Shown here: positions 41,482 through 46,747 of the stretch, piece by piece | Numbering within the stretch: the stretch's first letter is position 1 | How the letters are laid out: each line of letters starts with the position of its first letter | Source: Gloeobacter violaceus PCC 7421 | GTDB taxonomy: Bacteria; Cyanobacteriota; Cyanobacteriia; Gloeobacterales; Gloeobacteraceae | Reading direction: 5' to 3' | Length of the DNA stretch: 64,000 nucleotides | Assembly (NCBI RefSeq): GCF_000011385.1 | Contig: NC_005125.1 | Location: 1,054,001-1,118,000 of the forward strand | Notes under the pieces: generated by a model | What the model saw: only the letters and a program-made list of their open reading frames with translations | The model's database searches: none | What the model was told of the DNA's origin: nothing | Position numbers and translations under genes: made by a program

Positions 41482-43440
41482 TCAGGGAGTTTGCGGGTCC
41501 GTTTTGGGCTTGGGAAGCTCCCAGATTTTGCGCCAGGGGTTCCAGAACATCACCAAATCCGCACAGGCGGGGCACTTGAGAAAGTAGCCCCGCTTGACTT
41601 TTTTGGAGGGTACCTTCGAGAGCGCCTGGCGGCAACGGGGACAGGGGGTGCGCGAAATCTGCGGTGCTTGGGCTGTGCGTGGAGCGGCCGGACGCTTCGG
41701 AAATTCCGCCGCAATCGCCGCGCGGGCGCGCGCCACCGCCGGCACCAGATAGTCTGTGTTCCAGCCGATCAAATATTTTTCCCAGGGCTCGCGGCTTGCG
41801 GCAATCGCATCGAGGCCCGTCTCCATCCGGGCGGTAAAGGCGCTGTCGACCAGTTCCGGCAGCGTGCGCCCGAGCAGCGCGTCGGTGGCCAGACCCAGCT
41901 CGGTGGGCACCAGCGCGCGGCCCTGCAGTTCGACGTAGGCGCGCTCTTTGAGGGTTTTGATCGTCGAAGCGTAGGTCGAGGGCCGCCCGACCCCTTTGCG
42001 CTCCATCAGCTGCACCAGCTTCGGCTCGCTGTAGCGCGGCGGCGGTTGGGTGCGCTTTTTTTCGTGGGCCGAGCGCAGCAGTTCCAGGTTCTGTCCGGCT
42101 TCGAGGGCGGGTAGGGCCAGGGCCGCCTCCAGGTCGTTCCAGTAGCGCGTGTAGCCCGCGAAGGCGACGGTCATGCCCAGAGCCTGCCAGTGCACCGGGC
42201 CGGAGCGGGTCAAGATCTTTGTCTTGGCCAGGCGGGCCGGGGCGCACTGCGAAGCCACCGCCCGCCGCCAGACAATGTCGTAAAGCCGCAGTTGCTCCTC
42301 GCTCAGGTGCGCTCGGATCGTGCGCGGCGTCAAGCTGACGTCGGTGGGGCGGATCGCTTCATGGGCCTGCTGGGCACCTGCGCGGGAGCGGTGCGTGGCG
42401 CTGCGGGCGGGCAGATTGTCGGGGTCATTGATCTGCAGGTAGGTGCGCGCCTGTTCGACAAATTCGGGGGCCACTTCGACGCTGTCGGTGCGCATGTAGG
42501 TAATGAGCCCCTTGCGGCCGGTGGGCAGGTCGATGCCTTCGTAGAGCTGCTGGGCGATACCCATCGTGCGCTCGGGGTTGTAGCTGAGCAATGCCCCAGC
42601 GGCCTGCTGGAGGGTACTGGTGGTGAAGGGGGCCGGGGGGATCTTCGTAACGGTGCGCCGCTCGACGCGCTCGACAGCGTGGGGGTGGCTGCGCGCCAAG
42701 GCGACCAGCCGGTCGGCCTCCGCTTCGCTCAGCACCCGGGTCGATTCGGCGGGGGGCGCTTCTTTGTTCGATTTGGCGTCGTCGGTCGCCTCGGTCGACT
42801 CGGGCGTCTCCTGCACGTCCCCTTGGTAGTAAGCCCGCCAGCCGGGGGCGTACTCGACCCACACCGACCAGTAATCGACCGGCACAAAGGCGATAATCTC
42901 CCGTTCGCGCTCGCACACAAAGTGCAGCGTCGCACTTTGGACCCGGCCCGCGCTCTTGCCGCCGGTCGCATTCCAGAGCAGGGGCGAAACTTTGTAGCCC
43001 ACCAGCTTGTCGAGGCACTGCCGGGCGCGCTGGGCGCTCACCAGGTCCATATCCAGGCGACCGGGTGATTGCAGGGCTGTGCGCACGGCTCCCTCAGTGA
43101 TCTGAGTACAGCGGATGCGCCGGGGGGATTTGAGGCGCAACTCCCGTGCCAAATGCCAGGCAATCGCTTCCCCTTCACGGTCGGGGTCGGTGGCTAGATA
43201 CACTTCCTGGGCCTTAGCCGCCGCTGTGCGCAGTTTCTTGAGCGTCGCCATCCCGCGCTCGCCGCGGGGCACGTAGCGGCAGGTTATCGCCTCGGGGCCG
43301 ACATCGAACCCCAGGTGATCGGCACCGTCGTTGGCCAACTCCATGACATGACCCAAAGACGCCTGCACGTCCCAGCCCGCGCCGAGAATTGCCTTAAAAG
43401 TTTTGATCTTACCTGGACTTTCGCAAATCAATAGCCGCAT
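41482..43440 (-). CDS. topA: type IA DNA topoisomerase I, short form
   Basis: A 652-residue topoisomerase that relaxes negatively supercoiled DNA. TOPRIM motifs CESPGK and ATDPDREGEAIAWH are at the N-terminus, the active-site tyrosine is in GLITYMRTDS, and a single C-terminal zinc-finger-like segment CPRCRQ...CPACAD ends the protein. It is shorter than typical cyanobacterial TopA, mainly at the C-terminus, so it may be a second topoisomerase of the cell. Two consecutive ATG codons occur at the start. The AT-rich HEPN/DUF262 island lies directly upstream. Confidence 0.9.
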   Translation of the reverse strand: MRLLICESPGKIKTFKAILGAGWDVQASLGHVMELANDGADHLGFDVGPEAITCRYVPRGERGMATLKKLRTAAAKAQEVYLATDPDREGEAIAWHLARELRLKSPRRIRCTQITEGAVRTALQSPGRLDMDLVSAQRARQCLDKLVGYKVSPLLWNATGGKSAGRVQSATLHFVCEREREIIAFVPVDYWSVWVEYAPGWRAYYQGDVQETPESTEATDDAKSNKEAPPAESTRVLSEAEADRLVALARSHPHAVERVERRTVTKIPPAPFTTSTLQQAAGALLSYNPERTMGIAQQLYEGIDLPTGRKGLITYMRTDSVEVAPEFVEQARTYLQINDPDNLPARSATHRSRAGAQQAHEAIRPTDVSLTPRTIRAHLSEEQLRLYDIVWRRAVASQCAPARLAKTKILTRSGPVHWQALGMTVAFAGYTRYWNDLEAALALPALEAGQNLELLRSAHEKKRTQPPPRYSEPKLVQLMERKGVGRPSTYASTIKTLKERAYVELQGRALVPTELGLATDALLGRTLPELVDSAFTARMETGLDAIAASREPWEKYLIGWNTDYLVPAVARARAAIAAEFPKRPAAPRTAQAPQISRTPCPRCRQALSKVPSKKVKRGYFLKCPACADLVMFWNPWRKIWELPKPKTDPQTP

Positions 43441-43512
43441 CATTCACAAATTTACACCCGAACAGCGCGATAGTCCCGCAAAATTAAGTTGTTGATCTAG
43501 ATGTTGTTAGGA

Positions 43513-44178
43513 TTATACAAAATTTATATCTTGCATCTTGTTTAGTGCAGTTTGATGAATATGCTCACACAATTCCAAACAGTCTGCAACTTGATCTCTT
43601 GCATCTTCTGGCGATAGAAAGCTTCTCACAATTCCCTTATGGGCTACATCTCCTCTATATTTAGCCAATCTATTTAAGGACTCTATGACTCTGGTTTCAT
43701 TCATGATATTCAAACCAACAGGTAGCAGTAGTTTCTTCAGATATTTTAGGGAAATACCGTGATTATTATTAACTTCTTTTGAGAAGGCACTGACAATGCT
43801 GTCGATATTTTCTTTCAAATATGAGTAGCAACTTTTCTCATCTTCGCGATCATCAACTTTGATCTTCGGCCTGGAACCATAAAAGCATAAAAGATAGAGT
43901 AGAGGCTCCGTCGCTTTCTGTGACGTTAACCAGACATTGCAGCTATGGTGCATGATTTTCAGCACTACACTCTCAAAGTAGTCTTCTAAGGCTGCATGTG
44001 CAAGGATGCAGTACGACTTGACATGAAAATCGTATTCTTGAGGATCAACAGGATCAGCAGTAGGATCGGTTTGAAAGAACTGCTTAATCAATGCATCCTC
44101 TATATCTGATAGCTGTTTGAACAAATCGTCGTAGACTGCTGTTAACTGCTCCTTTATGGTGGAGGTACTCGGCATCAC
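43513..44178 (-). CDS. HEPN-domain protein (RiboL-PSP-HEPN-like), 221 aa
   Basis: A helical 221-residue protein carrying the HEPN nuclease motif Rx4H as KYRGDVAH (Arg175, His180) and an AHAALEDYFESVV helix near residue 61, as in RiboL-PSP/MAE_28990-type HEPN domains. Such domains are RNases in toxin-antitoxin and phage-defence loci. It follows the DUF262 gene by 11 bases on the same strand. The DNA is strikingly AT-rich, unlike both flanks, which indicates recent acquisition. Activity and target are inferred from family, not shown. The likely start is GTG or the adjacent ATG at 44175. Confidence 0.82.
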   Translation of the reverse strand: MMPSTSTIKEQLTAVYDDLFKQLSDIEDALIKQFFQTDPTADPVDPQEYDFHVKSYCILAHAALEDYFESVVLKIMHHSCNVWLTSQKATEPLLYLLCFYGSRPKIKVDDREDEKSCYSYLKENIDSIVSAFSKEVNNNHGISLKYLKKLLLPVGLNIMNETRVIESLNRLAKYRGDVAHKGIVRSFLSPEDARDQVADCLELCEHIHQTALNKMQDINFV

Positions 44179-44189
44179 TATTTTCCGTC

Positions 44190-45398
44190 TTAACGATTTC
44201 TCACAGGAACGTCATCGATTTCACAATTGTACGCATCATTAACTAGCTCCTGGAATAAGCTATAGCGCGTTTCGTATTTGTCCAAGCTTTTGGTAGTCGA
44301 CTCAATTGAACTTCGAAACACTGGATTATTGCCACACAACTGCTTGAACTTTTCAAGAAATCGCTCATTGTTTTCAATGGTTGCATGTGCATCAGAAAGT
44401 CTACAAAAGTAATAAATTTCAACTTCAAACAAAGCCTTGTTAAATCTTGCCTCCCATTTGTCACCCGTGAATTTCCTTCCAATGTGTTGTACAGTGAGTA
44501 TCTCAGACAGCCGCGCCAGGGCTATGTTAAAGTCCCCATATAGTTTATCTACTTTGGGTTTACACTGAGACCAATTTTTTGTGATAGCGGCCATTGAATC
44601 ATCAAGAAATTTTTTCAGATTTCCTTTGTATTGATGAGGGAATAAAGAAATGCAAAAAAAACGAAGCAGAATCTCGACATCCTGAAGCCTAGGATCAGAG
44701 CCTCTGAGCCTAAGTACTTCGTGCAACAACTGATAGCTGTTGGTAATCTCAATTAAGTAGTCAGCAAATGCGCCTTTTTTCAGAACTTGCCGAAGTTCCT
44801 GAGTAGCTAATGGGGAAGAGCCAGTGTTAAGTCTGTAAAAAATATCGTACAGAATATCATCTGATGCATAGTTTGATATAACGGTGCACCGGATGTCAGC
44901 ATTTAAAAATCGTCTATAATCTTCGCTTAGGCTTGCTCGGCTTTTTAGTTGGGCATAGGTGACACTATTTAAATCTTTTCTAAGAAGTAGATTTTTAAGT
45001 TTCGGATCGTTCCAGTAGTTAAACTTATCAGGCTCAAAAAAGCCAGCAATGGTTAGAAGGCGTTGCTTACCATCAATGACTATAAATGACTTTTTGAGCT
45101 CCTTATCCTCTGCGAAAACAATCTCAGGCACTGGGATGCCGACAATTAGGGATTCGATTAACTTGCTTCTTCTATCATCGCTCCAGGCATTACGGCGCTG
45201 AAATTTAGGATTTAAGTCAATGTTTCCTTTCTGTATTTGACTAACAATTGTTTCAACAGTCCAATCCCTAGAGTAGACAATCAGCTCTGAAAGATCTTGA
45301 TCTTCAGGAGCGATATCCTCAATGGTATCTTGATTTGCTTCCTCGATATTAATGACGCTTTCGGGAACCTCGAAAAGGATTGCTTCCATATGACTCAT
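44190..45398 (-). CDS. DUF262 domain protein (ParB/GmrS-N-like), 402 aa
   Basis: A DUF262-family protein. It has the early NPKFQRRNAW segment (residues 63-72), LIESLIVGIPVPEI, and the nucleotide-binding DGKQRLLTIAGF motif (DGxQR at 109-113), then a long helical part. The C-terminal DUF1524 HNH nuclease found in GmrSD-type enzymes is not present, so cleavage may come from the HEPN partner. AT-rich codon use contrasts with the genome. It is the first gene of a two-gene unit. An alternative ATG is at codon 4. Defence is the usual context of DUF262 proteins; the precise mechanism here is inference. Confidence 0.85.
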   Translation of the reverse strand: MSHMEAILFEVPESVINIEEANQDTIEDIAPEDQDLSELIVYSRDWTVETIVSQIQKGNIDLNPKFQRRNAWSDDRRSKLIESLIVGIPVPEIVFAEDKELKKSFIVIDGKQRLLTIAGFFEPDKFNYWNDPKLKNLLLRKDLNSVTYAQLKSRASLSEDYRRFLNADIRCTVISNYASDDILYDIFYRLNTGSSPLATQELRQVLKKGAFADYLIEITNSYQLLHEVLRLRGSDPRLQDVEILLRFFCISLFPHQYKGNLKKFLDDSMAAITKNWSQCKPKVDKLYGDFNIALARLSEILTVQHIGRKFTGDKWEARFNKALFEVEIYYFCRLSDAHATIENNERFLEKFKQLCGNNPVFRSSIESTTKSLDKYETRYSLFQELVNDAYNCEIDDVPVRNR

Positions 45399-45547
45399 AG
45401 TCGATTTAGTAATGCAAGACTAACACATCTGGATTAGCGTTATATACTGCTGGAAAATGCAGCATATCTTAAAGATTTTTTGCAAAGCTTCAGTTAAAGA
45501 CACGAATTTTATGACTTGAAATCCTAACCCTTACGTGTCCAAATATC
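45399..45547. other. AT-rich intergenic border of the HEPN/DUF262 island
   Basis: No gene. This should hold the DUF262 promoter; candidate -10 elements (TATATA near 45442 on the minus strand) exist but no clear -35. Dyads TGCTG/CAGCA (45448-45464) and GACACG/CGTGTC (45499-45539) are seen; the latter may mark the island edge. Confidence 0.35.
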
Positions 45548-46747
45548 TCACTTTTTGCTCTGCGAGGAGAAGCTCTCAAACCAGCCCCGCCGCCAAAAAT
45601 AGACGACCAGACCCACGGCCACTATGAACATCAGCACCAGGCTGAACGGATAGCCCCAGTACCATTCCAGTTCGGGCATGTTCCAGGGGGATTTTTCGGG
45701 ATCGAAGTTCATGCCGTAAACCCCGGCGATAAAGGTCAGCGGAATAAAAATGGCCGAGATCACCGTGAGGGTCTTCATCACCTCGTTCATACGGTTGCTC
45801 ACCGAGGACATGTAGATGTCGGTCAGGCTCGAAGCCAGTTCCCGGTATGTCTCCACCATATCGATGATCTGGATGGCGTGGTCGTAGCAGTCGCGCAAGT
45901 AGAGGCGCACCTCCTCGCCAATCAGCGGGTTGGCATCGCGGATGAGGGCGTTGATCACATCGCGCTGGGGCCAGATGGCGCGCCGCAGCATGAGCAGTTC
46001 GCGCCGGAGCAGATAGATTCTCTCAAGGGTAGCGCGGGTGGGGTTTTCTACCACCTCCGCTTCGAGTTCCTCGAGGCGTTCGCCGAAGTCTTCGAGCACC
46101 GGGTAAAAGCCGTCGATGATCGCATCGAGCAGCGTGTAGGCCAGGTAGTCGGCGCGCTGATTGCAGATGATGCCCTTGGCGGTGCGGATGCGCTCGCGCA
46201 CGGGGCCGAAGACGTCGAATTTGGCTTCTTCCTGGACCGTGAGCAAATAGTTTTTGCCCAGGATCAAACTCACCTGTTCGCTGAAAAATTCTTCTGCTGT
46301 TTCGGAGGTGGGACAGACCATCCTGGCGATAATCAGCAAGTGATCCTTGTATTCTTCCACCTTGGGGCGCTGGGGCACATTCACGATATCTTCGAGCACC
46401 AGCGGATGCAGCCCGAATACCTTGCCCAGGCGGCGCAGGATGTCCTCGCTGCCGAAGCCGCGCACGTCGGCCCACGAGACCGAGTGGTTGTCCAGGTAAG
46501 GCGTCAGTTCCTCGGGATTTTCCACCCTGCGGCCGGTGGATTGTTCGGCATCGTAATCGATGAGGTGGATCTCGGGCGGTGGAGCGTTTTTGTCGATGCT
46601 GAGCGTTCCCGGCATGGTACCGGGGTCGTCGTAATGGTAATCGACGTAGGACTCATCCTCGTCGGAACCCATTGCTTCTCCGGCTTCCGGCTTCCGGTCT
46701 CGCATGGCGGCCGCACTCTGAAGGGCACCACCCAATTCTAGAGGCAT
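45548..46747 (-). CDS. corA: CorA family magnesium/cobalt transporter
   Basis: A ~399-residue CorA channel. A cytoplasmic domain is followed by a long helix and two C-terminal membrane segments; the selectivity motif YGMNF stands between them (IAGVYGMNFDPEKSPWNM). A basic Lys-rich end matches the family. The first ~25 residues are unsure; ATG at 46747, 46705 or 46672 are possible. It is the last gene of a same-strand set with the bilin lyase and aldolase. Confidence 0.93.
   Translation of the reverse strand: MPLELGGALQSAAAMRDRKPEAGEAMGSDEDESYVDYHYDDPGTMPGTLSIDKNAPPPEIHLIDYDAEQSTGRRVENPEELTPYLDNHSVSWADVRGFGSEDILRRLGKVFGLHPLVLEDIVNVPQRPKVEEYKDHLLIIARMVCPTSETAEEFFSEQVSLILGKNYLLTVQEEAKFDVFGPVRERIRTAKGIICNQRADYLAYTLLDAIIDGFYPVLEDFGERLEELEAEVVENPTRATLERIYLLRRELLMLRRAIWPQRDVINALIRDANPLIGEEVRLYLRDCYDHAIQIIDMVETYRELASSLTDIYMSSVSNRMNEVMKTLTVISAIFIPLTFIAGVYGMNFDPEKSPWNMPELEWYWGYPFSLVLMFIVAVGLVVYFWRRGWFESFSSQSKK

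Follow-up and report, generated by a model that had tools for sequence, protein, structure and literature searches.

Between topA and corA in the genome of Gloeobacter violaceus PCC 7421 lie two AT-rich genes, one for a DUF262 protein and one for a HEPN protein, and the locus raises the questions of whether this pair is an acquired anti-phage system and what kind of enzyme its HEPN component may be. The window, i.e., the whole stretch of 64,000 nucleotides that was analysed (NC_005125.1, positions 1,054,001 to 1,118,000), contains the following features, given in window coordinates.

41482-43443: topA, flanking the insert
43444..45547: inserted AT-rich segment of 2.1 kb between topA and corA (from GC content and empty sites in relatives)
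43513..44178, minus strand: HEPN gene, RiboL-PSP type, 221 aa (PF18735, structure model)
43639..43656, minus strand: RGDVAH codons (residues 175-180), the HEPN catalytic motif, here with G following R (sequence)
43756..43764, minus strand: NHG codons, residues 139-141, conserved N-x-G before the motif helix (alignment)
43972..43998, minus strand: HAALEDYFE codons, residues 61-69, with His61, Glu65 and Glu69 of helix 46-86 (model, alignment)
44190..45398, minus strand: DUF262/GmrSD_N gene, 402 aa (PF03235, PADLOC, structure model)
45060..45074, minus strand: DGKQR codons (residues 109-113), the NTP-site motif of DUF262, which usually reads DGQQR (sequence)
45548-46747: corA, flanking the insert

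A sequence-only reading of this DNA had pointed to two closely spaced genes of deviating base composition inserted between topA and corA, to a DUF262 protein with DGKQR and without an HNH domain, and to a HEPN protein with RGDVAH, and all of these observations were borne out. On the minus strand the order is corA, DUF262, HEPN and topA; the HEPN gene starts with GTG, the next codon being an ATG at 44175 that offers an alternative start, and the spacing from DUF262 to HEPN is 11 bp, or 14 bp with the ATG. The insert has a GC content of 39%, compared with 61% for the window. GC3 of the two genes is 0.38-0.40, whereas the 18 further genes compared range from 0.65 to 0.84 and none of them shares the negative codon fit of the pair. 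An empty site is present in G001 and G003, two of three same-genus genomes, where corA and topA lie 64 bp apart and the flanks are 92-95% identical to those of the window up to 43442 and from 45567; in the third (G002), corA and topA are unlinked. An ancestral topA-corA locus was rejected on the basis of these empty sites and the deviating codon use, and the DUF262-HEPN pair is horizontally acquired. Borders of a mobile element were also considered for the insert and rejected, there being no tRNA within the window and no border repeats found around 43444-45547. A tandem arrangement of corA and topA is interrupted by the insert, which starts directly after the topA start and therefore may be transcribed by read-through from corA and may have altered topA expression. 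Neighbouring genes of related pairs gave only scattered matches to defence or mobile-element families, so the island context is weak, and no family was common to more than five when a conserved third gene was sought among 134 ORFs flanking 69 pairs.

Matches to DUF262 occurred in 103 and matches to PF18735 in 92 of the 386 genomes of the phylum, and at least 78 of the 150 best DUF262 matches listed had a listed PF18735 match within 2 kb, a lower bound drawn from the best 150 matches of each kind; all 78 of these PF18735 matches were on the same strand and downstream. A profile of the subtype HEPN, i.e., the kind found in the window, matched in 20 of the 386 genomes, and every intact copy (17/17) lay directly downstream of an intact subtype DUF262 gene. 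The other three were decayed copies in G262, G287 and G118 (L276, L278 and L279), with stops in both genes in G262, a truncated HEPN adjoining an intact DUF262 in G287, and a 57-residue HEPN remnant with no partner in G118. Related loci were compared from 80 genome contigs and from 25 viral contigs, the first ones in a set of 80. HEPN directly adjoined DUF262 in 95 of these 105, three ended at a contig edge and seven had no HEPN by script, one of which (L130) does carry an overlapping HEPN; near-duplicates remain in this count, as in the 93-pair and 186-HEPN counts given below, and loci from genome contigs, from IMG/VR and from other genomes are partly the same sequences. Random co-occurrence was rejected on the strength of the 17 intact pairs and the best-listed matches, and the DUF262-HEPN pairing is obligate and operon-like.

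The closest relatives of the DUF262 protein are not cyanobacterial. Its best matches, at 47-55% identity, belong to Bacteroidota, Proteobacteria and viral contigs (IMG/VR), with relatives in the two bacterial phyla reaching 54%, and identity to other cyanobacteria is 38%. A Klebsiella P2-like phage (Peduoviridae; L074, NC_049450.1) carries the pair at 42% and 34% identity, where it sits as a cargo unit between phage tail genes. A quick DUF262 tree without bootstrap (LG+G4; 117 rows after removal of rows above 70% identity from 188) placed the subtype in one clade of 71 of the 117 rows (SH-aLRT 100), with nine phylum names among its rows. The window falls in a 14-row subclade (99) whose other members are from Bacteroidota or Proteobacteria, apart from one row that bears the label Myxococcota, and the cyanobacterial members lie outside it. 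A separate group of DUF262-linked HEPN genes, whose open frames span roughly 355-365 codons, was also seen at L039-L044 and in other rows.

The DUF262 protein matches PF03235 GmrSD_N in Pfam (E 3.3e-23), and no HNH/DUF1524 domain was matched by Pfam in either protein of the pair. Among the PADLOC models it matches NsnA with 229 bits and PD-T4-2_A with 133 bits (E 3e-39); we take NsnA and NsnB to be the PADLOC names for Menshen, and no source paper for these names was found in the literature. DGKQR is present in all 93 aligned DUF262-HEPN pairs, an alignment that leaves out HEPNs shorter than 170 aa or without a stop. The structure model (pLDDT 91.5) showed a moderate match of residues 42-395 to BrxU 1-423 (Z 8.3, rmsd 17.5 over 293 residues), a match to SspE at Z 6.8 and a weak one to DndI at Z 4.4; the protein resembles the sensor half of BrxU, SspE and DndI without their nuclease. 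At L002, L072 and L073, relatives of this DUF262 have an AAA/OLD-like gene downstream in place of HEPN, an exchange of effectors around one sensor; one member of a DUF262-relative locus matches NsnB, and this match is probably the AAA-like gene at L073.

The HEPN protein matches PF18735 HEPN_RiboL-PSP in Pfam (E 6.1e-24), and its model (pLDDT 92.7) is structurally closest to HEPN toxins of HEPN/MNT systems (7ae6, 7ae9 and 5yep are examples), with a best match of Z 10.2, toxin matches at Z 9.5-10.2 and further ones down to Z 8. These values call for caution, as unrelated helical bundles score up to Z 9.1 in the same list and even Z 10 may arise between helical bundles by chance. With Foldseek alone, the HEPN model had no match below 0.001, and sequence searches of the PDB returned nothing useful. 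According to PMC3710099, a polar residue, in most cases N, D or H, typically follows R in the HEPN motif, and the second motif typically reads Ex3[KR]. The window protein has the superfamily motif Rx4-6H (R175 and H180) and departs from these two usual but non-obligatory features with G176 and E69. RGxx[AV]H was found in the HEPN of 93 of the 93 aligned pairs, and among 186 HEPNs, 107 of the RG clade and 79 others, the same positions separate the two groups: position 176 is G in 107/107 clade members and N/H in 76/79 others; position 69 is E in 107/107, versus K/R in 56/79 and E in 15/79; position 61 is H in 104/107 and mostly Y, S, V or C in the others; and position 141, where the alignment is less certain than at 65 and 175-180, is G in 107/107 versus N in 66/79. 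E65, R175 and H180 are retained in both groups, the latter two in 107/107 clade members. Apart from L202, no row outside the clade in this comparison combines the states of the clade, and intermediates were absent among the 186 HEPNs. Positions 61, 65 and 69 share one face of helix 46-86 in the model and would be close to R175 and H180 in space. As judged by alignment, the pocket of the subtype is consistently altered, and this distinct active-site pattern, which sets the subtype apart, was missed by the sequence-only reading.

The change in HEPN goes together with the lysine of DGKQR. Among 188 distinct pairs, after removal of exact duplicate pairs from 203, RG never occurred without K (106 K-G pairs by script, and L181 with RGSFAH), and K occurred without RG in L206 and L004, where DGKQR accompanies a canonical R-N/H-x3-H HEPN, and in L202, where it stands beside a truncated HEPN. 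Two changes were counted on the tree for the HEPN G and three for the DUF262 K, the second G change being attributed to L202 with its truncated HEPN. K111 and the HEPN change are not independent events, since both mark one clade.

Such a pocket (His61, Glu65, Glu69, Arg175 and His180) may serve a different chemistry or a different nucleic acid, so that the subtype HEPN would not be an ordinary metal-independent RNase. The switching of positions 61, 69, 141 and 176 in 104-107 of the 107 clade members relative to the 79 others argues for this reading, as does the contribution to catalysis that PMC3710099 describes for the residue after R in the KEN domain; we nevertheless consider it unlikely, given that R175, H180 and E65 are retained and the predicted fold is that of HEPN. 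A related and bolder proposal, which we hold only tentatively, is that this nine-phylum subtype is a defence system in which the pocket of the HEPN effector has been rebuilt from two His, two Glu and Arg, with G after R, and matched to the DGKQR NTP site. The effector would be a HEPN nuclease of new chemistry, two-histidine or metal-dependent, switched by a GmrS-like sensor.

The reading that we favor as reasonably probable is that the two genes, acquired horizontally, make up an anti-phage system of the same DUF262-HEPN kind as PD-T4-2, in a distinct DGKQR/RGxxAH subtype. In this system the DUF262 protein, with a ParB/Srx fold, would act as an NTP-binding sensor-regulator and keep its HEPN partner inactive; a cue from the phage, be it DNA that is modified or unusual or a change in a nucleotide, would lead to NTP binding or hydrolysis by DUF262, and this step would free or activate the HEPN ribonuclease, so that RNA is cut and the infected cell or the phage is stopped. 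This sensor half drives a fused HNH domain in BrxU and SspE, whereas the effector of the window pair would be a separate RNase. A defence function is supported by the obligate pairing, the kinship with PD-T4-2, the carriage by phage and in IMG/VR, the fold matches and the transfer, and is weakened by the lack of a PD-T4-2_B match, an altered pocket that may not be that of an ordinary RNase, the weak island context and the moderate strength of the fold matches. Two of the points that the sequence-only reading had named as counting against its probable defence system, random co-occurrence and normal codon use at an ancestral locus, failed, and the system still appears a probable one.

A rival reading is a toxin-antitoxin module, in which DUF262 simply serves to neutralise the HEPN protein, an RNase toxin, and addiction or a stress response keeps the genes in place, defence being secondary or absent. 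No intact subtype HEPN occurs without its intact DUF262 (17/17), G287 keeps DUF262 beside a truncated HEPN, and the closest structural matches to the HEPN model are HEPN/MNT toxins. However, the kin of this DUF262 are defence components, namely PD-T4-2, Menshen, BrxU and SspE according to PMC10952713, and the pair is carried by a P2-like phage, which makes a toxin-antitoxin module improbable, with gene order not telling the two models apart. That the pair is a neutral, decaying insertion without present function in this genome is hardly credible, since both window genes are full length with clade-invariant residues, for all that its distribution is patchy (20/386 genomes) and decayed copies exist in G262, G287 and G118.

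DUF262 sensors occur with interchangeable effectors, i.e., HNH, AAA/OLD and HEPN, and the subtype would be a clean two-protein system for DUF262 sensing and signal transfer to a separate enzyme. The putatively rebuilt HEPN active site seems the most interesting feature of the pair, and, being fixed in nearly all sampled members, it yields a testable prediction on HEPN chemistry.

Among known systems, Menshen shares the DUF262 component, as judged by the NsnA match, and has a predicted OLD nuclease as partner (PMC10952713) in place of HEPN; no PADLOC match to NsnB, the AAA/OLD partner, was obtained for the window pair. GmrSD, BrxU, SspE and DndI have in common with the window pair the DUF262 half and its DG-x-QR motif, with fold matches to the last three, and differ from it in that the pair has no DUF1524/HNH and carries its HEPN partner on a separate protein. 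HEPN/MNT toxin-antitoxin systems resemble it in HEPN fold and Rx4H motif, whereas the window partner is DUF262 with no nucleotidyltransferase, and RG replaces R followed by a polar residue. PD-T4-2, to which the window pair is kin, protects E. coli against T4 both natively (ECOR65) and when present in K-12 (Vassallo et al. 2022, PMC9519451), and is listed under DUF262 and PF18735 HEPN (PMC10952713); a Ribo L-PSP-HEPN "operon with ParB" already appears in a 2013 table (PMC3710099). The view that a DUF262 and HEPN combination is little studied was therefore not upheld, and in our literature search no title or abstract was found to treat its mechanism. The window pair shares both families and the PD-T4-2_A match with PD-T4-2; the HEPN protein gave no match to PD-T4-2_B up to E 1, and the pair was not assigned to PD-T4-2 proper. 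Better-matching loci, L067 for PD-T4-2_B and L247 for PD-T4-2_A, have DGQQR, R-H-x3-H and HEPNs of 157-161 aa, and fall in a sister clade in the DUF262 tree, a placement of PD-T4-2 that rests on the PADLOC models. The combination is already known, and DGKQR and RGxxAH mark the window pair as a subtype that is sister to PD-T4-2.
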